Origin: Kiritimatiellia bacterium
GTDB lineage: Bacteria > Verrucomicrobiota > Kiritimatiellia > UBA8416 > JADHWI01
Reading direction: 5' to 3'
NCBI GenBank assembly: GCA_016783565.1
Contig: JADHWI010000022.1
Coordinates: 1 to 37,757, forward strand
Length of the DNA stretch: 37,757 nt
The notes beneath the pieces were generated by a model, which was not told the DNA's origin, searched no databases, and worked only from the letters and a program-made list of their open reading frames with translations. Below, in pieces: positions 28,431 to 37,757 of this stretch (within the stretch, counting starts at the first letter, position 1; every line of letters starts with the position of its first letter). The position numbers were made by a program, and so were the translations under genes.

Positions 28431-28490
28431 CTCGACTTCCCCCCCACACTATGAAAAAGTTTTATGCTTCAAACATTGAGACCAACAAAC

Positions 28491-28955
28491 ATGACACAAA
28501 CAAGAGTAAAACAGAACGTCACAGCGACAATGGAGGATTACCTCGAGGCCATTCTCCATATCTCTGAGCAATCTGGACAAGCTCGCTCACGCGACATTGC
28601 AGAGCAACTCGGGGTCCACCGTTCGACGGTGACCTCTGCCTTGCGGGGGTTGGCCGAGAAGAGATTGATCAACTACGCCCCCTATCGTGCCGCTACCCTG
28701 ACCAGAAAAGGACGCCAGATCGCAGAACGAATTGGCCGGTCTCACGAACAAATTGAAACGTTCTTGCGAGACGTCTTGCTCGTACCCAAGCGTGCGGCGC
28801 GCGAGAATGCATGTCGCATGGAACATGTTGTAGATCGCAACGTGATCCAACGACTGGTAAAACTTGGCCAACACTTGCGCTCGCGACCCCGTCGAAGCCG
28901 CGCAACGCTTGCAAAAGCAATCAGCTCAACCACAAAGGAGACGCCGTCCCTATGA
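28491..28955 (+). CDS. DtxR/MntR-family metal-dependent repressor
   Basis: The protein is about 154 residues from ATG 28491; ATG 28464 is an alternative, and neither has a good ribosome site. A winged helix-turn-helix (SRDIAEQLGVHRSTVTSALRGL) is followed by the metal-binding dimerisation domain. Ligand positions are D16 and E19 in MEDYLEAI, H85 in SHEQIE, and C108, E111, H112 in ACRMEH. D16 is the MntR type, while C108 matches the DtxR/IdeR Cys. There is no C-terminal SH3-like domain. It overlaps feoA as ATGA, so it very likely represses the feoAB operon when ferrous iron (or manganese) is bound. Confidence 0.88.
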   Translation: MTQTRVKQNVTATMEDYLEAILHISEQSGQARSRDIAEQLGVHRSTVTSALRGLAEKRLINYAPYRAATLTRKGRQIAERIGRSHEQIETFLRDVLLVPKRAARENACRMEHVVDRNVIQRLVKLGQHLRSRPRRSRATLAKAISSTTKETPSL

Positions 28956-29212
28956 CCAAGCCGATATCTCTTAAAGAACTTGGTTTAAACCGCACAGCCC
29001 GGGTCGTCAAAATTGATGGCGGGCGGGGCATCGTGCAACGCCTTGCCGAAATGGGAATTTCCTCCGGAACCGAGCTACGCGTGGTGCGCGGAAAAGGCCC
29101 GATCATCATTGAAGTACGAAGACAACGCCTCGTGATCGGCCACGGTATGGTCCCACGCATCATGGTCGATCCCATTGAGCCCGCAACACCGGACGATAAG
29201 CCCATCTTATGA
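28952..29212 (+). CDS. feoA: FeoA, ferrous iron transport accessory protein
   Basis: The 86-residue SH3-like protein is typical in length and sequence: ISLKELGLNRTARVVKI, then RLAEMGISSGTELRVV and LVIGHGMVPRIMV. FeoA is a small cytoplasmic protein needed for FeoB activity. The ATG overlaps the regulator stop and the gene's TGA overlaps the feoB start, both as ATGA, so the three genes are translationally coupled. AAGGAG lies 11 bases upstream. The longer open frame to 28811 is not needed. Confidence 0.93.
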   Translation: MTKPISLKELGLNRTARVVKIDGGRGIVQRLAEMGISSGTELRVVRGKGPIIIEVRRQRLVIGHGMVPRIMVDPIEPATPDDKPIL

Positions 29213-31353
29213 TAGAAGAAAAAATAGTTGGCAACACAAAACGAACCGTACCAGCGCAGCCTGAGAAGTCTGAGTTCCGTGCAGCCCTCGGTGGCAATCC
29301 CAACGCCGGAAAGACGACGCTTTTCAATGCCCTGACGGGCGGACAACACCATGTGGCCAATTACCCTGGAGTCACCGTTACGGCCAAAGAAGGCCTCATG
29401 CTGCACAAGGGACACAGCACGTCGCTCATCGACTTGCCGGGCACCTACAGCCTTGCCGCCTACTCCCCTGATGAGCTGGTTGCGCGCAATTACGTCCTCG
29501 ACCAACACCCCGATGTTGTGATCAGCATCTGTGACGCCTCCAGTTTGGAACGCAGCCTGTACCTCGCCGTCCAATTCATGGAACTACGGGTTCCTATGAT
29601 TCTGGTTCTGAACAAGAGTGATCTTGCAGAAAAAAGCGGCCATATCTTTAACATTGAGATCCTTGAGCGCCTCCTGGGCATGCCCATTGTGCCTACGTCC
29701 GCACACCGCGAAGAAGGTATACAAGAACTTAAAGATGCCATTCTAAACATAGAAATACGTAAAGAACGCCCGCTGCCGGTAAAAGTAACCTATGGTCGCG
29801 AAATCGAAGCAGAGCTGGAACAACTCACGCCAATGGCAGCACAAGCTGCGGAACACCTGTCTCGCGATCCCCGATGGGTAGCGCTCAAACTTCTGGAAAA
29901 AGACGCCTATGTGCGCAACCGCCTAACAGGCGAATGCGGAACGGATGGAGCCTCTCTACTCACGCAGGCCGGTGAGGCCATCGGGCGCATTGAAAAGCAT
30001 TTTGGAGATCGTTCGGAAATCGTCATTGCGGATCAACGCTACGGCTTTATTTCAGGCGCCTGCCAGGAGGCAGTGACGACCACTTCCGAGATGCGCCACG
30101 ACATATCCGATCGCATTGATGACATCGTGACCAGTGAACTTTTGGGCATACCTATCTTTCTCGTGCTCATGTATTTTCTTTTCAAGTTAACCTTCACCCT
30201 GGGTGCCCCCGCGATGATGCTGATCGAAGCCACAGTCGGCTGGCTGGGAAATATCGTGTCCTCGCTATGGCCCGGCGGCACAGAGAATGCCCTCTGCTCT
30301 TTGCTGGTCGACGGAATTATCGGAGGCGTGGGCGGCGTACTCGTCTTCCTGCCAAACATTGCCCTGCTTTTCGTGGGCATTGCATTTCTGGAAGACTCAG
30401 GCTACATGGCGCGGGGCGCATTCATCATGGACCGCTTCATGCACAAAATCGGCCTGCACGGCCGCAGTTTCATCCCCGCGGTGGTAGGATTCGGATGCAC
30501 AGTTCCTGCCATCATGGCCACACGCGCACTCGAGAACAAACGGGATCGGCTGACCACCATGCTTGTCCTGCCACTCATGAGCTGTGGCGCACGCTTCCCC
30601 ATTTACACACTGTTTATTGCCGCGTTCTTCCCTCAACCCTGGCGCGCACCCATCCTGATGGGTATTTACCTGCTGGGCATTGCTCTGGCAGCATTGCTGG
30701 CCAAATTGCTGCGCAAAACATTACTAAAGGGTGACACATCGCTGTTTGTTATGGAACTGCCTCCTTACCGCATGCCCACCCCCCGCGGCATTCTTTCGCA
30801 TACCTGGGAACGCACGCGCCAATTCATCCGAAAAGCCAGCACGGTAATCGTGGTGGCAAGCTGTATCCTCTGGGTCTTAACAAATTACCCCAAGCCGGAC
30901 GCCGAACAGCTCGAGAACCTGACTACCGTCGAACAACAATCCGTAGAGCTGTCCACATCCATAGCTGGACGCATCGGCCATACCATAGAACCCATCATGC
31001 GCCCCATTGGATTCGACTGGAAAACCAGCACTGCCCTGATTGGCGCTTTCGCAGCCAAGGAGATCTTTGTAGCACAATTGGGCATCGTGTACTCACTGGG
31101 AGAAGCTGACGAGGAATCATACACGTTACGACAACGCCTTCGCGAGAATTACACACCCCTGCAAGCGCTATGCATCATGATCTTCTGCCTCATCAGCATC
31201 CCCTGTGTTGCAACAATGGCCACAATGAAAAGCGAAAGCGGCGCATGGCGATGGCCTCTCCTGCAATTCGGGGGACTCACATTACTCGCGTACCTGATCA
31301 CCCTCGTATTGTACCAGGGCGGCACCTTACTTGGTTTCGAATCCATGCTATAA
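29209..31353 (+). CDS. feoB: FeoB, ferrous iron transporter
   Basis: The 714-residue protein has an N-terminal G domain with GNPNAGKT (G1), the switch region NYPGVTV, DLPGTYSL (G3) and NKSD (G4), followed by a helical GDI-like region and a membrane domain from about 310. Two Gate motifs are visible: FIPAVVGFGCTVPAIMATRAL and, near it, LMSCGARFPIYTLF, with the conserved Cys residues. It imports Fe2+ across the inner membrane. No feoC follows. The next gene is 113 bases on and may have its own promoter. Confidence 0.96.
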   Translation: MIEEKIVGNTKRTVPAQPEKSEFRAALGGNPNAGKTTLFNALTGGQHHVANYPGVTVTAKEGLMLHKGHSTSLIDLPGTYSLAAYSPDELVARNYVLDQHPDVVISICDASSLERSLYLAVQFMELRVPMILVLNKSDLAEKSGHIFNIEILERLLGMPIVPTSAHREEGIQELKDAILNIEIRKERPLPVKVTYGREIEAELEQLTPMAAQAAEHLSRDPRWVALKLLEKDAYVRNRLTGECGTDGASLLTQAGEAIGRIEKHFGDRSEIVIADQRYGFISGACQEAVTTTSEMRHDISDRIDDIVTSELLGIPIFLVLMYFLFKLTFTLGAPAMMLIEATVGWLGNIVSSLWPGGTENALCSLLVDGIIGGVGGVLVFLPNIALLFVGIAFLEDSGYMARGAFIMDRFMHKIGLHGRSFIPAVVGFGCTVPAIMATRALENKRDRLTTMLVLPLMSCGARFPIYTLFIAAFFPQPWRAPILMGIYLLGIALAALLAKLLRKTLLKGDTSLFVMELPPYRMPTPRGILSHTWERTRQFIRKASTVIVVASCILWVLTNYPKPDAEQLENLTTVEQQSVELSTSIAGRIGHTIEPIMRPIGFDWKTSTALIGAFAAKEIFVAQLGIVYSLGEADEESYTLRQRLRENYTPLQALCIMIFCLISIPCVATMATMKSESGAWRWPLLQFGGLTLLAYLITLVLYQGGTLLGFESML

Positions 31354-31466: not shown

Positions 31467-32723
31467 GTGAGAGCCGGACATCTGTTTATCAGAGAATTGC
31501 GTTTTCGACGGGTGAGCGTCGTACTCGCAATTGTGGCCGCAGCAGCGGTGTCCGCCTGCGTGGTCGGTGCACGCAGTTTTTTAGCCGCTCACGATGCGGA
31601 AACTGAAAAGCTAATAGCCGCACTGGAAGAGCGTGCCGCCGATCGCATGGCTCAACTTCGTGATGACGCCAGGGTGTTTTCAAAAAACCTGGGATTCAAC
31701 ATCTTACTCCTGCCTGGAGATCAGGATGCAGGGCGCCTCTATGCAGAAAATCGCAGCACGGCTTTCTTCACCCGCAAGCAGGTTCAGGCTCTGGGCAGCG
31801 CCGAACTTGCCACATTGAATCATCTACTCCCCATGCTACGACACCAGATACATTGGGATCAATATGATGGCAACGTCATTCTGGTCGGCATTGAAGGAGA
31901 AATTTACATCAAGTCGCCAAACTTCCAGAAACCCATTGAAGAGCGTGTGGATGCCGGCATGGTTCACATTGGGAACGCCATTCATAAGCGCCTGAAACTT
32001 CAGATAGGCGCCCAACTGGAAATTGAGGGCGAGACATTTACCGTCAAGCGTGTGCTGCCGCAAAAGGGCAATATCGATGACATCAGCCTCCTGATGAACT
32101 TGGGAGACGCGCAGCGCTTAAGCGGGCAACCCGGAAAAATATCCGGCGTGCTGGCCCTGAGCTGCAACTGCGCAGCCGGCGACCTGGACCCGATCCGGCA
32201 AGAACTTGAACGCGTCGTGCAAGATGTGCAAGTCGTGGAGTTCTCAGTACGCGCCCAGGCCAGACAACGCGCCCGTAGCGCAATAGGAAAACGTACGAAA
32301 GAAGAAATGCAGGACATCACGGAAAGCCGCGCCATTCTCCGATCCCATGTTGCACAATTCGCCACACTGCTGGTATCCCTTGTGGTCGTAGGTGCCGCCA
32401 TATTCCTGACCGTGCTCACCTTTGCAAGTGTTCGTGAACGACGGTCCGAAGTGGCTCTGTTACGCGCCCTCGGACTCGGTTCGCTCTCCATCTTTGCGCT
32501 CATGCTTTACAAGGCCGTGCTGACGGGTCTGGCTGGTGGCATCTTCGGTTGCCTTGTTGGCGTATTAGCAGGACGCTGGATACTGGGAATCAGCGCCACG
32601 GCAACCACGCCATTCATGTTAAGCGTCATCAGCGCCACGGTAGCGATTGCCACGCTTGCATCTGCGTTGCCAGCCCTGATGGCCGCTCGCATTGACCCGG
32701 CAGTTATATTGAATCAGGAATGA
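31467..32723 (+). CDS. FtsX/MacB-like ABC transporter permease
   Basis: The protein is about 418 residues, starting at GTG 31467 (VRAGHLFIRELRFRR), which has GGAG six bases upstream; GTG 31455 is less well placed. One membrane helix near residues 15-35, a large extracytoplasmic domain (about 36-290) and three C-terminal helices give the FtsX/MacB topology. The motif SVRERRSEVALLRALGLG before the third helix is typical of this superfamily. Such proteins drive mechanical work on periplasmic partners rather than import. It pairs with the ATPase starting 51 bases later and with the exported protein after that. Confidence 0.88.
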   Translation: MRAGHLFIRELRFRRVSVVLAIVAAAAVSACVVGARSFLAAHDAETEKLIAALEERAADRMAQLRDDARVFSKNLGFNILLLPGDQDAGRLYAENRSTAFFTRKQVQALGSAELATLNHLLPMLRHQIHWDQYDGNVILVGIEGEIYIKSPNFQKPIEERVDAGMVHIGNAIHKRLKLQIGAQLEIEGETFTVKRVLPQKGNIDDISLLMNLGDAQRLSGQPGKISGVLALSCNCAAGDLDPIRQELERVVQDVQVVEFSVRAQARQRARSAIGKRTKEEMQDITESRAILRSHVAQFATLLVSLVVVGAAIFLTVLTFASVRERRSEVALLRALGLGSLSIFALMLYKAVLTGLAGGIFGCLVGVLAGRWILGISATATTPFMLSVISATVAIATLASALPALMAARIDPAVILNQE

Positions 32724-32774
32724 ATGTATGGTTGATCGTCCATTGATCGAATCATTCCGTTTGAGTTGAGAAAC

Positions 32775-33434
32775 ATGATAGACATTCAAAAAATCACCAA
32801 GACGTATCGCTCTGAAACAAAGGAACTACTTGTGTTGAAAGAGGCTACCGCCTCAATCAAACCCGGCACATTTGCGGCGATCTGCGGGCCAAGCGGTTGC
32901 GGCAAAAGTACACTGCTTCTCGTGCTGGGCGGATTGCTGCATCCCGACACAGGCCGGGTAATGATCGATGGTGAAGACCTGTTTGCCCTTTCCTCCGAGC
33001 GCCGGGCCCTCCGCAGAGCACAACTGCTGGGGTTTGTATTCCAGCGATTTCACCTCATCCCCTATCTGACGGTAGAGGAAAACATTGAAGCAGCGGCCAT
33101 TGCCCTGCGCGGATCGACAGACCAGGTTCGCGCAAAAGAACTGATGGACCAACTTAACATCACAGATCGTCGCACCCACGTGCCGGGAAAACTAAGCGTT
33201 GGAGAGCAACAACGTACCGCGCTTGCCCGTGCGCTCTACAATCGTCCCCGTGTTTTACTCGCAGACGAACCCACTGGCAACCTGGACCCTGAGAATGCCG
33301 AAATCGTTCTGAACGCATTTTCCGATTTTGCCAATGCCGGGGGAACCGTCATTATGGTAACGCACCACCCCGAAGCCGCCGAACAGGCCGACACCCAATG
33401 GTGGATAAAAAACAAAACATTAGTAAAGGGTTAA
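32775..33434 (+). CDS. LolD/MacB-type ABC transporter ATPase
   Basis: The protein is about 219 residues from ATG 32775; a TTG at 32766 would add three residues. Walker A is GPSGCGKST, the Q loop is FVFQRFHLIPYLTVEEN, the signature is LSVGEQQR (Val for the usual Gly) and Walker B is VLLADEPTGNLD, followed by VTHHPEAA. The DEPTGNLD wording and size fit the LolD/FtsE/MacB group that serves FtsX-like permeases, here the preceding gene. It ends one base before the next start. Confidence 0.92.
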   Translation: MIDIQKITKTYRSETKELLVLKEATASIKPGTFAAICGPSGCGKSTLLLVLGGLLHPDTGRVMIDGEDLFALSSERRALRRAQLLGFVFQRFHLIPYLTVEENIEAAAIALRGSTDQVRAKELMDQLNITDRRTHVPGKLSVGEQQRTALARALYNRPRVLLADEPTGNLDPENAEIVLNAFSDFANAGGTVIMVTHHPEAAEQADTQWWIKNKTLVKG

Positions 33435-33435
33435 C

Positions 33436-34506
33436 ATGATTATTCCATTCCCGAATCATACATCGCGCTTTTGCCTTCCTGTCCTGCTCAGTCTCATAAG
33501 CATGGCGTCTGCACGCGCCTGCACCGTTCCTGTTTTTCGCTATGCTCTTGAGCGATGGCCCCCGGATGCGCACATCATCAGCATCGCATCAAACGTGCCG
33601 TTGGATACGGCAACGCTGGACAGCGAATACCACGCCAACCTGTGGTTCCAGCGGGCCCCGGCAGACCAAACCAACGCGGTACGCGTCATCTATCCGGACA
33701 TCAATCAGGCCTGGTACAGCGGGGACTGGAAGCCGGATCTCCTTGCGCAACTTACAGACTCACCCTTGCGCCGCCGTATCGCCCATGAATTAATGACCGG
33801 AACCACTGCTGTTTTTGTCATGCTGGAATCAACGGATGCCACCTCAAACGCGACAACAAAAGCCATGTTCGAAAAGAGCCTGGCAGAACTAGCCAACGAG
33901 ATTGAACTTCCCAAGGAACTCGACTACGAAGACGAACAGGATGGTTGGAGCGGGGCGGGACACGGACAGGACGTGGGAACCATCCCCGTGCGCATCGACT
34001 TTTCAGTGCTGACAGTATCGCGTTCAGATGCCTCTGAAACGTTTCTAATCAAACAGATCGAAGGACTCGACACCGGATTTTCGAACCCGAAAGAGATCGT
34101 GATGGTTGCCGTATTTGGACAAGGGCGCATGATCCCATTGGCCGGCGAAGAGCTGGTTCCTGCCGTCATCAACGAGCTGTGCTGGTTTCTCTGCAGCGCC
34201 TGCTCGTGCAGAGTCAAAGCATTGAACCCTGGCGTTGACATGCTTCTCGCCGCAAATTGGGACGAAGCAAAACACAGCTACCCCAATGCGGTCACCACGG
34301 TATTGCCGAATGGTGAGACGTTCACCCTCGGCGGTACCGGCATTGTCGAGCAGGCTAGCACAGAAGAAGAGCAAAAGACGATGTCATCGCAGGCAACCCC
34401 TGAGGCAGACACCCCCGCGACCTCTAATCCCATCCCCCCTATTGCGTGGTTAGCCGTACTGACCCTCATCGTGACAGCCACTCTCACCTGGTTACTGAAG
34501 AAATAG
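33436..34506 (+). CDS. Exported Cys-rich tail-anchored protein, function unknown
   Basis: The 356-residue protein has a signal peptide (about 1-28, ending ASARA) so that the mature form begins CTVPVFRYALERW. A conserved-looking mixed alpha/beta domain follows, with a Cys cluster LCWFLCSACSCRV near residues 247-259, a Thr/Pro/Glu-rich linker and a C-terminal membrane helix (WLAVLTLIVTATLTWLL) ending KK. It would sit outside the inner membrane, anchored by its tail. I recognise the N-terminal motif from exported proteins of PVC bacteria but not a function. It starts one base after the ATPase stop, so it is probably the substrate or partner of the FtsX-like transporter. Confidence 0.7.
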   Translation: MIIPFPNHTSRFCLPVLLSLISMASARACTVPVFRYALERWPPDAHIISIASNVPLDTATLDSEYHANLWFQRAPADQTNAVRVIYPDINQAWYSGDWKPDLLAQLTDSPLRRRIAHELMTGTTAVFVMLESTDATSNATTKAMFEKSLAELANEIELPKELDYEDEQDGWSGAGHGQDVGTIPVRIDFSVLTVSRSDASETFLIKQIEGLDTGFSNPKEIVMVAVFGQGRMIPLAGEELVPAVINELCWFLCSACSCRVKALNPGVDMLLAANWDEAKHSYPNAVTTVLPNGETFTLGGTGIVEQASTEEEQKTMSSQATPEADTPATSNPIPPIAWLAVLTLIVTATLTWLLKK

Positions 34507-34514
34507 GGACGCGT

Positions 34515-36080
34515 ATGCATCGCAATAAACATAAATCCCTCACCCGTGCAAATCATACGGGTGTCATCGCTGTCTGCACATTTCTCTTACTCATCTTTTT
34601 GATCGCACTCCTGCTGAAGCAAGACAACAAAACGCATTCTTCCCGCCGTAACCTCGTGCTCTTCTGCGCAGCAGGCATGCGGCTGCCGATTGAACAAATC
34701 CGTCAGAATTTCGAACGCGAATGCGGAGTTACCGTTGATGTTCAATACGGGGGGTCCAATACTCTGCTCAGCCAACTTCAGGTGTCACGTACGGCAGACT
34801 TGTATCTCGCCGCTGACGACAGCTATCTTGAGATCGCCAGACAGAAAGAACTCGTGCGCGAAACGCTTTCCATCGCAACGATGGTACCCGTCGTGGTGGT
34901 AAAAAAGGGCAACCCCCGAAACATCAAAAACATTGCCGACCTGATCCAACCAGGAATTCGAATTGCGCTCGGCAACCCCGAACAGGCAGCCATTGGAAAG
35001 AAAACAAAACAAGCACTTCTAAACTCTGGACATTGGGATGCTCTGCAACGCCACGTGACACAATCCGGCGTATTCAAACCCACTGTCCCGGATGTCGCCA
35101 ATACCGTTCAAATCGGCAGCGTAGATGCAGGCATTGTCTGGTCCGCCACGGCTACACAAATACCTGAATTGGAAATCGTTCGCCTACCCGAATTAACAGC
35201 AGGAGCCAGTCAGATCACAGTCGGAATCACTAGCTGGAGCGAGCCTGCAAAAGAAGCCCTTCTCCTTGCCCGCTATATTTCAGGCGCCAATCGCGGGTTG
35301 AACACATTCAGAAAAATGGGATACGATCCCGTTCTCGGCGATCCCTGGGTTGCCAGCCCTGAGTTAACTTTTTTTTCCGGTTCCGTGAATCGTCGTGCAC
35401 TCGAACCGGTGATTAAACGGTTTGAGAAAAGGGAGGGGGTACGCCTGAATACGGTCTACAACGGATGCGGCATCCTGACAGCCCAAATGCGCACAATACG
35501 CGAAAGCAGCGACCCCGGCTTCCCGGATGTTTACATGGCCTGCGATGTCTACTACCTGGACACCGTGGCCGAGCTCTTTGGCGAGGGCACACGCATATCA
35601 CAAACCGATATTGTAATTGCCGTCGCAAAAGGCAACCCGAAAGGGATCGAAACACTTGCAGATCTGACAAAACCCGGCGTCCGCTTGGCCATCGGGCAAC
35701 CCGACCAATGCACAATCGGCGTGCTGACGCGTCGCCTTCTTGAATCCGCAGACCTTTACGAAAAGCTTCTCAACAGAAACGTGGTCACCCAAACAGCCAG
35801 TTCAGCCATGCTGGTTCCCGCAGTCACAACAGGTGCGGCGGATGCAACGCTTGCCTACAAGACTGACACGCTGGCAGAGAATGACCGCATCGATGTGATC
35901 ACTATAGACTCATCAGCAGCAAGAGCCGTACAGCCCTTCGCCGTGTCCAGAAAAACACCCTATAAACACATGGCAGCACGCTTGTTCAAAACAATTCTGA
36001 ACGCACGCCTTGACTTTGAAAAAGCGGGTTTCCAGTGGCGTCAAAAGGACATGCAGAAAACTGAAGAGGCGACACAATGA
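34515..36080 (+). CDS. Membrane-anchored double ModA-like binding protein
   Basis: The protein is about 521 residues from ATG 34515; the frame to 34446 overlaps the upstream gene. One N-terminal helix (about 15-34) anchors it. Two ModA-type solute-binding domains follow, at about 46-275 (LVLFCAAGMRLPIEQI, ADLYLAADDSYL) and 282-505 (LTFFSGSVNRRALEPV, PDVYMACDVYYL). Both carry the later segments KGNP, I/LADLxxPGxRxAxGxPxQ and a GxxDAxxxxxT-like stretch. Each lobe pair could bind an oxyanion such as molybdate or tungstate. The tandem fusion with a membrane anchor is unusual for a binding protein. It overlaps the permease gene as ATGA. Confidence 0.88.
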   Translation: MHRNKHKSLTRANHTGVIAVCTFLLLIFLIALLLKQDNKTHSSRRNLVLFCAAGMRLPIEQIRQNFERECGVTVDVQYGGSNTLLSQLQVSRTADLYLAADDSYLEIARQKELVRETLSIATMVPVVVVKKGNPRNIKNIADLIQPGIRIALGNPEQAAIGKKTKQALLNSGHWDALQRHVTQSGVFKPTVPDVANTVQIGSVDAGIVWSATATQIPELEIVRLPELTAGASQITVGITSWSEPAKEALLLARYISGANRGLNTFRKMGYDPVLGDPWVASPELTFFSGSVNRRALEPVIKRFEKREGVRLNTVYNGCGILTAQMRTIRESSDPGFPDVYMACDVYYLDTVAELFGEGTRISQTDIVIAVAKGNPKGIETLADLTKPGVRLAIGQPDQCTIGVLTRRLLESADLYEKLLNRNVVTQTASSAMLVPAVTTGAADATLAYKTDTLAENDRIDVITIDSSAARAVQPFAVSRKTPYKHMAARLFKTILNARLDFEKAGFQWRQKDMQKTEEATQ

Positions 36081-36922
36081 CGCCCACCACTAGAACATGG
36101 CGACCTCCGGGCAAACACTCAGATCGCGCTTTTATAGCTGTGTTCAGCATTATTCTAGCCACCTATGCCTTTTTGATTCTCCTGCTGCTTGTCGCCGACA
36201 TTGCCTACGTTGGATGGTCTCCTCAGAACAACTCTTCCTGGCCCTTCGCAGAAGCATTTCTCTCTGCATTTCGTTCCCCGGAGATACGGAGTGCGATGAC
36301 ACTGACGATGATTTCCTGCACGATCACAGCCATCCTTTCTGTTTTCGTGGCCATACCCGCAGGCTACTTGCTCTCGCGCTACCGCTTTCCGGGAAATCGT
36401 GCCGTGGACGCACTGCTGGATATTCCCATCGTGCTACCGCCCCTCGTAGTGGGATTGAGCCTTCTGATACTCTTTCAGTTTCTGCCACGCGGAATGCGTG
36501 AAGCCATTGTCTATGAGCGCCCGGCCGTCATCATTGCCCAGTTTGCAGTTTCCTGCGCATTTGCTGTTAGAATCATGCGCGCAGCTTTTGATCAAACCGA
36601 CGAGCGCTGTGCACAGGTAGCGCAAACACTGGGTTGCTCGCGACGCCAGGCCTTTCTGATGGTCGAACTGCCGGAGGCATGGCCCGGCGTACTCACTGCT
36701 GTCACCATAGCGTGGGCCAGGGCTCTAGGTGAATTTGGTCCATTGCTCATTTTTGCCGGTGCAACCCGCAACAAAACAGAAGTACTGTCGACCACCGTTT
36801 TTCTGGAATTGAGTATTGGCGATCTTTCAGCAGCGGTCACGGTATCATTGATCATGGTGACAGCCGCTGTGGCCGTCGTCCTGACCGCACGTACGTGGGG
36901 CTCACGGACATTTAACATTTGA
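36077..36922 (+). CDS. ModB-like molybdate/tungstate-type ABC permease
   Basis: The 281-residue protein has about six membrane helices and the binding-protein-dependent permease loop that contacts the ATPase: AQTLGCSRRQAFLMVELPEA, then GVLTAVTIAWARALGEFGP. LIFAGATRNKTEVLSTTVFLELS is the ModB/CysT-type continuation. It should form a homodimeric channel served by the double binding protein and the following ATPase. The start ATGA overlaps the preceding stop. Whether the ion is molybdate, tungstate or sulfate cannot be read from the permease. Confidence 0.92.
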   Translation: MTPTTRTWRPPGKHSDRAFIAVFSIILATYAFLILLLLVADIAYVGWSPQNNSSWPFAEAFLSAFRSPEIRSAMTLTMISCTITAILSVFVAIPAGYLLSRYRFPGNRAVDALLDIPIVLPPLVVGLSLLILFQFLPRGMREAIVYERPAVIIAQFAVSCAFAVRIMRAAFDQTDERCAQVAQTLGCSRRQAFLMVELPEAWPGVLTAVTIAWARALGEFGPLLIFAGATRNKTEVLSTTVFLELSIGDLSAAVTVSLIMVTAAVAVVLTARTWGSRTFNI

Positions 36923-36929
36923 GGAATGA

Positions 36930-37598
36930 ATGATTGTTCTGGATCATATCGACATCAATCAAGGCGCGTTCAGCGTGCGTAACGTGTGCATGAACATCCC
37001 GCAGAATGCCTACGCCGTCTTAATGGGAAGTACAGGCTCCGGAAAAACAACTCTTCTGGAAATCATTTGCGGCCTGCGCCAACCAGATTGCGGGCGAGTC
37101 CTGCTCAATGAATGCGACGTCACACACGCCACACCAGCAGCACGGGACGTAGGCTATGTCCCCCAGGACGGCGCGCTCTTTAAAACCATGACTGTCTTTG
37201 AGCAACTTGCCTTCTCTCTGGTCGTGCGACGAGAACACCATAGCGCAATTGAGACCCGTGTATCTGAGTTGGCCGGTCTCCTGGACATCGAGCATATTCT
37301 GGATAGAACCCCGGCAGGCTTGAGCGGAGGCGAGCGCCAACGTGTAGCCCTGGGGAGAGCCCTGTCCTTTCGCCCCGGCATCCTCTTACTGGACGAGCCC
37401 CTCACCGCTCTGGATGATGAAACCCGTTCACAGATCATGCACTTACTCAAACAGGTACAGCAACACACCGGCGTCACAGTCCTGCATGTAACCCACAACC
37501 GCAGTGAGGCGGAACAACTTGGCACAATGATGCTATGCATCAGCAACGGTTGCGTACAGGCCCTGACACAGGATAAGAAAGAAGAGAGTTACGTATGA
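36930..37598 (+). CDS. ModC-like ABC transporter ATPase, no TOBE domain
   Basis: The 222-residue ATPase has Walker A GSTGSGKTT, the segment VGYVPQDGALFKTMTVFEQL, the signature LSGGERQR, Walker B ILLLDEPLTALD and VTHNRSEAE. It ends soon after the ATPase core, so it lacks the C-terminal TOBE regulatory domain that binds oxyanion in full-length ModC. It lies seven bases after the permease gene, with GAGGA upstream, and overlaps the MoaD-like gene as ATGA. It powers the ModB-like permease. Confidence 0.92.
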   Translation: MIVLDHIDINQGAFSVRNVCMNIPQNAYAVLMGSTGSGKTTLLEIICGLRQPDCGRVLLNECDVTHATPAARDVGYVPQDGALFKTMTVFEQLAFSLVVRREHHSAIETRVSELAGLLDIEHILDRTPAGLSGGERQRVALGRALSFRPGILLLDEPLTALDDETRSQIMHLLKQVQQHTGVTVLHVTHNRSEAEQLGTMMLCISNGCVQALTQDKKEESYV

Positions 37599-37757
37599 GA
37601 ATTACGGTGGAATACACTGCACAACTTCGCATGCAAGCAGGCTGCGAAGCCGAAACCTTCGACCTGCCGCCTGACGCCAATCTCAAATGTGCTCTACAAG
37701 CCATTGTTATCAAACACGGAAAGGATGTTGCGGACCTTTTACTGGATGACACCCAAG
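37595..37757 (+). CDS. MoaD/ThiS-like sulfur-carrier protein (5' part)
   Basis: Fifty-four codons are visible before the window ends. MRITVEYTAQLRMQAGCEAETFDLP has the first beta-strand and the AxLRxxAG phrase of MoaD, followed by NLKCALQAIVIKHG as the helix. This ubiquitin-like family supplies sulfur for molybdopterin (or thiazole) synthesis through a C-terminal GG, which lies outside the window. The start overlaps the ATPase stop as ATGA. The neighbourhood of a molybdate/tungstate-type transporter favours the molybdopterin role. Confidence 0.75.
   Translation, partial: MRITVEYTAQLRMQAGCEAETFDLPPDANLKCALQAIVIKHGKDVADLLLDDTQ

Follow-up and report, generated by a model that had tools for sequence, protein, structure and literature searches.

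What process would bring an FtsX-type machine, a molybdate-type importer and a MoaD-like protein together in one operon? The question is raised by positions 31,467 to 37,757 of contig JADHWI010000022.1 (C4) from a Kiritimatiellia bacterium (GCA_016783565.1). The window, which is the whole stretch of DNA that was analyzed (37,757 nucleotides), is the complete contig C4 of a 2.4 Mb genome that is 85% complete. Seven genes follow one another: permease, ATPase, exported protein, double binding protein (ModAA), ModB-like permease, ModC-like ATPase and MoaD-like protein. This order and the gaps of 51 bases or less were verified by an open reading frame check, and Pfam and NCBIfam searches backed every gene assignment except that of the exported protein. 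An initial annotation had read the operon as molybdate or tungstate uptake with cofactor building. Herein, the cluster is found to be conserved across the Planctomycetes-Verrucomicrobia-Chlamydiae (PVC) group. The general statement with the best support is that of a single conserved system, in which thiol-based chemistry on the outer side is paired with sulfur-carrier chemistry on the inner side. We tentatively propose an undescribed modular envelope system that handles a thiophilic cargo, with a soft metal ion such as Cu(I) as the favored candidate.

Recurrence and co-occurrence of the composite cluster

In a scan of named genomes, the exported protein had 509 relatives. Most of the best 80 of the 509 belonged to Verrucomicrobiota or Planctomycetota; a few came from Kiritimatiellae, Victivallales, Omnitrophota and Hydrogenedentota, and a single one was labelled Deltaproteobacteria. 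Neighbors were counted at the 57 loci where the exported-protein gene is flanked by 4.5 kb or more in both directions. FtsX was found near 31 of them, LolD near 32, ModAA and ModB near 25 each, ModC near 24, MoaD near 9, and ThiF1, a relative of the ubiquitin-activating-type enzymes (E1), near 21. The loci consist of a three-gene core of exported protein, FtsX and LolD, often without Mod genes, or of a longer form in which ModAA-ModB-ModC and MoaD-ThiF1 are added. Chance is excluded because the same gene order recurs in other, distant genomes. The composite cluster is real.

The co-occurrence of the genes was measured with p values that treat genomes as independent and ignore phylogeny. Among 144 relatives, ModAA was present in 21 genomes, ThiF1 (called at 49% identity or above; next matches at 41%) in 18, and both in 17 (p 2e-17). 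ModAA and ThiF1 lie on different contigs in G094 and G124; therefore, the tie exceeds adjacency. The exported protein was found in 17 of 57 relatives, and ModAA never occurred without it in the first 57 relatives (p 4.5e-7). The claim of the initial annotation that the two ATP-binding cassette (ABC) sets, the exported protein and MoaD belong together is thus borne out. The annotation had also said that the two sets occurring apart would speak against a single process. This objection holds by half: the exported protein-FtsX-LolD set does often stand alone, and ModAA did not in the first 57 relatives.

PQQ_2-type (pyrroloquinoline quinone-type) propeller genes were found near 37 of the 57 loci, and a propeller gene lies directly upstream (within 300 bases) of 23 of the 93 exported-protein genes. 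PQQ-like genes are common in PVC-group phyla. The FtsX-LolD pair and the exported protein could be a LolCDE/MacB/FtsEX-type trafficking or mechanotransmission machine for these propellers, with the Mod and MoaD genes as a separate function sharing the operon. The exported protein is accompanied by propellers more often than by ModAA, and the permease is MacB/LolC-like. This explanation is nevertheless improbable, given that ModAA was always accompanied by the exported protein in 57 relatives and that conserved cysteines occur in both gene sets.

Conserved cysteines in three extracytoplasmic partners

Searches of Pfam and NCBIfam placed the exported protein in no family, and PDB sequences gave no match, in line with the earlier remark that this part of the locus was not known to have been described. 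It had also been called Cys-rich, which was generous: its cysteines are few, yet they are clustered (C249, C253, C256, C258), and three are near-invariant, with C29, C256 and C258 kept in 91 of 92 relatives. The conserved motifs are ACxVPVFRYALERW and CSCxVK..NPG. The AlphaFold model (predicted local distance difference test score, pLDDT, 81.7) shows two alpha-beta domains between a signal helix and a C-terminal transmembrane helix. Foldseek returned mostly thioredoxin-type and protein disulfide isomerase-type matches, several spanning both domains; these matches were weak (best E 0.0078). The protein is likely composed of tandem predicted thioredoxin-like domains and a membrane anchor, and this fold is graded only as likely, not established, because no Foldseek match fell below E 0.001. 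In G056 (L045:9843-10514), the exported protein has the first domain only, without CSC, and its locus carries ModAA-B-C without FtsX or LolD, as though FtsX were tied to the CSC domain. At L088:4397-4497, two Acido-Lenti-1 RNA matches lie on opposite strands just upstream of an exported-protein gene.

The FtsX-type permease carries a CxC motif in its extracytoplasmic domain, whose first and second cysteines are kept in 51/51 and 50/51 relatives, respectively. Its FtsX domain (PF02687) scores 47.8 bits against a cut-off of 25.5, and the protein resembles MacB/LolC, with a score below the LolC/E cut-off (41.7 versus 362 bits). Similarly, the ATPase matches LolD (TIGR02211, E 1.7e-53) below the cut-off (181 versus 308 bits). 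None of the LolCDE, MacB and FtsE models is passed by either protein. A defence system was considered and rejected, as PADLOC gave weak LolE-TM matches and nothing else.

ModAA passes the modA model TIGR01256 over two stretches (123.9 versus 62.5 bits). Its AlphaFold model (pLDDT 89.4) shows a tandem ModA fold and matches PDB 1wod with E 4e-19. In E. coli ModA, the bound oxyanion is touched by Ser12, Ser39, Val152 and Tyr170 (PMC8895017). When the second ModAA domain was aligned to ModA, C318 was placed at Ser39 and C343 at Ala58, in 48 of 50 proteins each. These two cysteines are kept in 42 of 44 aligned relatives, and C51 is near-invariant too. The Ser12 position in this domain is Met or Val, and the Tyr170 position is mostly Tyr there and mostly Trp in the first domain. 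Over 50 ModAA proteins, the Ser12/Ser39/Tyr170 positions read G/S/W in the N-domain and V or M/C/Y in the C-domain. As judged from these alignments, the ModAA pockets depart from ModA at most ligand positions, which counts against the earlier proposal of molybdate or tungstate uptake.

The other two importer components are below their model cut-offs, ModB at 147.6 versus 182.6 bits (TIGR02141, modB) and ModC at 161.2 versus 285 bits (modC). The NF040840 match of the ModC-like ATPase spans 1-211 of 347, also below cut-off, and the C-terminal part of ModC/WtpC is absent. The window's genome has a further tandem ModAA-ModB-ModC operon on contig C11 (G000:C11, L238:5891-9309; also L239), and this one lacks the exported protein, FtsX and MoaD. 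Its ModAA is without the two pocket cysteines; it has Cys-His in the second pocket, with a CHDP motif in the ModA Ala58 region of the second binding domain.

MoaD is followed by a modified E1

Since the window is a complete contig, the sequence past 37757 is not on C4. The last 139 bases of C4 recur without mismatch, as the reverse complement, at the end of contig C45 from the same genome. The MoaD frame stays open across the join and gives a protein of 90 aa ending in PISGG-stop. On C45, the next three genes after MoaD encode ThiF1 of 255 aa, a ThiF-rhodanese protein of 377 aa and a TauE/SafE protein of 168 aa. This order is also found in the relative G019, and its first three genes in G026. 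That the two contigs join here is inferred from the exact match of their ends, the frame that stays open and the gene order shared with both relatives. No oxidoreductase, moaE or moeA is among the genes following MoaD on C45. An aldehyde ferredoxin oxidoreductase (AOR) or other molybdenum oxidoreductase as the next gene, which the initial annotation had expected, is rejected by this junction and by the family searches.

The joined MoaD belongs to the ThiS family PF02597 (E 1.1e-9; 39.2 versus 22.5 bits), falls below the molybdopterin-synthase equivalog TIGR01682 (29.6 versus 66.15 bits), and ends in GG in 11 of 11 aligned proteins. All 33 ThiF1 proteins have Pro for the Asp of DxTDN, Gly for the Asp after strand 2, and Arg both for the first nucleotide-loop Gly and for the Lys; the catalytic Cys is absent from all of them. 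The Arg finger is retained, and so are the zinc cysteines in nearly all of the 33. Midpoint rooting places the ThiF1 proteins in a single clade, whose support is modest (0.57). Because the residue changes are uniform, they argue for a new role, not decay. The ThiF-rhodanese protein keeps every residue lost in ThiF1, including the catalytic Asp and the catalytic Cys (both present in 10 of 10), and passes the MoeB-type model NF006444 (457.9 versus 449 bits). It is predicted to be a competent MoeB-type E1.

These genes bring in the main rival, a sulfur relay. ModAA-B-C would import a sulfane-sulfur species such as thiosulfate, whose sulfur would be taken by the rhodanese domain and carried by MoaD as a thiocarboxylate; TauE would export leftover sulfite, and FtsX-LolD with the exported protein would move thiols or persulfide across the membrane. 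The MoaD-ThiF1-ThiF-rhodanese-TauE order of the window's genome fits such a relay, and all conserved cysteines are compatible with persulfide chemistry. TauE and ThiF-rhodanese, however, are near only 2 of the 57 well-flanked loci. MoaD/JAB/E1 operons with sulfate or sulfite ABC transporters are known (PMC1779556) and resemble the cluster in having a ubiquitin-like protein, an E1 and an oxyanion-type ABC importer. Those operons also carry JAB, SirA and sulfur-assimilation genes, none of which was seen here, whereas the FtsX machine is present here. The relay is considered rather unlikely.

Relation to the molybdenum cofactor

The window's own genome, of which 15% may be missing, yielded no MoaC, MoeA, MoaE, Molydop_binding domain or AFOR. 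MoaC was also absent from four carriers of 95-97% completeness (G015, G094, G097, G108). Among the 144 relatives, MoaC was present in 53, including 13 of the 21 ModAA genomes. It is somewhat enriched among carriers of ModAA (p 0.014) and ThiF1 (p 0.008), and has no significant tie to the exported protein (p 0.77). AOR was found in 3 of 40 carriers and not found in 37. No riboswitch was found. The molybdopterin-supply reading of the cluster is not supported.

Molybdate or tungstate uptake with maturation of a molybdopterin-type cofactor was the reading of the initial annotation. It is consistent with the modA match of ModAA, with the MoeB match of the ThiF-rhodanese protein and with the MoaC enrichment. 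The near-complete carriers without MoaC, the scarcity of AOR, the replaced ModA pocket residues, the missing riboswitch and the genes after MoaD, which are not molybdenum or tungsten enzymes, all speak against it, and it is judged quite unlikely.

By Pfam, 22 of the 53 MoaC-bearing genomes show no MoaE; the molybdopterin synthase in this class may be divergent or replaced. A MoaE-less molybdenum cofactor as the reason for MoaD and ThiF1 was rejected: genomes that have MoaC and no MoaE are frequent in the class (22 of them), and 15 of the 22 are without ThiF1.

Proposed envelope system for thiophilic cargo

Because of the conserved cysteines, a sulfur-loving cargo (such as copper or reactive sulfur) is preferred over ordinary molybdenum-cofactor supply. 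Gene content, recurrence, co-occurrence and residue patterns were observed; direction of transport, cargo and partners are proposed here. Membrane-anchored ModAA would capture the cargo in its second-domain pocket, formed by two Cys plus Met or Val, and Tyr, and ModB/ModC would bring it in. In the cytosol, MoaD, handled by the modified E1 ThiF1, would supply activated sulfur; in the window's genome, the MoeB-type ThiF-rhodanese protein would turn MoaD into a thiocarboxylate. LolD would power the FtsX-type permease, whose CxC domain would pass on either cargo bound to thiols or reducing power; the recipient would be the anchored thioredoxin-like protein. The latter would serve extracytoplasmic clients, possibly the PQQ-type propellers encoded alongside in relatives.

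The proposal of thiophilic cargo is based on the near-invariant cysteines in the exported protein, FtsX and ModAA; on C318 and C343 at the Ser39 and Ala58 positions, with Ser12 changed to Met or Val; and on the predicted thioredoxin-like nature of the exported protein. It is also based on the recurrence of the cluster, on the co-occurrence of ModAA with ThiF1 and the exported protein, and on the lack of a tie between the exported protein and the molybdenum cofactor. In addition, TonB-dependent receptor genes accompany the cluster in G028 and G094, either within it or in divergent orientation (L218:8843-10795, L230:10739-12706), and a DtxR-type metal regulator, feoA and feoB lie directly upstream of the operon (window 28464-31353). 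Linkage of feoAB to the operon was not seen at the relatives' loci read.

Several points weigh against this proposal. The thioredoxin-like match is weak. ModAA meets the modA cut-off. The Met at the Ser12 position is Val in about one third of ModAA proteins, including that of the window. The propeller counts stand without a background rate, and the conserved cysteines could form disulfides. To our knowledge, there is no precedent for MoaD/ThiF1 in metal handling. That the Cys-pocket importer, the CxC FtsX machine, the anchored tandem-thioredoxin protein and the ubiquitin-like carrier with its dedicated pseudo-E1 form one pathway, a PVC-specific relay across the envelope whose cargo would be a thiophilic metal or sulfane sulfur, is a reading judged less likely than not.

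Features of the locus

Table 1 Positions of the operon genes and conserved residues; window coordinates unless a locus is named.
Feature	Position	Strand	Remarks
Permease	31467..32723	+	GTG start; 31455 alternative; FtsX/LolC/MacB-type ABC permease, PF02687 E 1.8e-12
Permease CxC	codons 32163-32165 and 32169-32171	+	Extracytoplasmic domain; conserved in relatives
ATPase	32775..33434	+	Gap 51 after permease; LolD/FtsE/MacB-type ABC ATPase (ABC_tran/LolD-like)
Exported protein	33436..34506	+	Gap 1 after ATPase; membrane-anchored; no Pfam/NCBIfam family
Exported protein C29, C256, C258	codons 33520, 34201, 34207	+	Near-invariant in relatives
ModAA, double binding protein	34515..36080	+	Gap 8 after exported protein; two SBP_bac_11/TIGR01256 (modA) domains
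ModAA C51, C318, C343	codons 34665, 35466, 35541	+	Conserved, pocket region
ModB-like ABC permease	36077..36922	+	Overlaps ModAA; BPD_transp_1, PF00528
ModC/WtpC-like ABC ATPase, 222 aa	36930..37598	+	Gap 7 after ModB-like; ABC_tran/WtpC-like
MoaD/ThiS-like ubiquitin-fold sulfur carrier, 5' part	37595..37757	+	Overlaps ModC-like; cut by contig end
Exact overlap with end of contig G000:C45	37619..37757	+	139 bases
ThiF1	L147:14424-15191 (G000:C45)		Pseudo-E1; SRxGG; CAPL in place of xATDN; no catalytic Cys

Comparison with known systems and implications

The importer is like ModABC/WtpABC molybdate-tungstate importers in fold, in gene order (binding protein, permease, ATPase) and in the TIGR01256 match. 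It differs in the tandem binding protein with second-domain cysteines at the Ser39 and Ala58 positions, in the short ATPase, in ModB and ModC scores below cut-off, and in its presence in genomes without MoaC. LolCDE/MacB/FtsEX machines share the FtsX-domain permease, the large extracytoplasmic domain and the LolD-like ATPase; the CxC motif, the predicted thioredoxin-like membrane-anchored partner and the scores below all models set the present pair apart. The MoaD/ThiS fold, the C-terminal GG and one apparently competent E1-rhodanese in the window's genome recall MoaD-MoeB, ThiS-ThiF and Urm1-Uba4, whereas the main partner here is ThiF1, without catalytic Asp and Cys. Unlike in MoaD-MoeB systems, MoaE was not found in the window's genome or in nine other same-order carriers searched.

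The Aromatoleum aor operon encodes a tungsten AOR with AorD (MoaD-like) and AorE (MoeB-like). It is similar in its adjacent MoaD- and MoeB-like genes and differs in that no AOR gene is present here. NosDFY with NosL serves copper/sulfur assembly for N2O reductase. By analogy only, it offers an ABC pair with a periplasmic partner for thiophilic cargo; its permease, periplasmic protein and clients differ. No description of the cluster was found in the open-access literature. Its parts have known or probable folds. In the libraries and open-access papers searched, no counterpart was found to their combination, the Cys pocket, the CxC machine or the pseudo-E1 clade.

If the proposal is true, molybdate-transport and MoaD gene names would be misapplied across Planctomycetes, Verrucomicrobia and Kiritimatiellae. 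A widespread uncharacterised exported-protein family, with its 509 relatives from one scan, would gain a role in envelope metal or sulfur handling. The uniform pseudo-E1 clade tied to MoaD is a new case of ubiquitin-like pathway diversification in bacteria.

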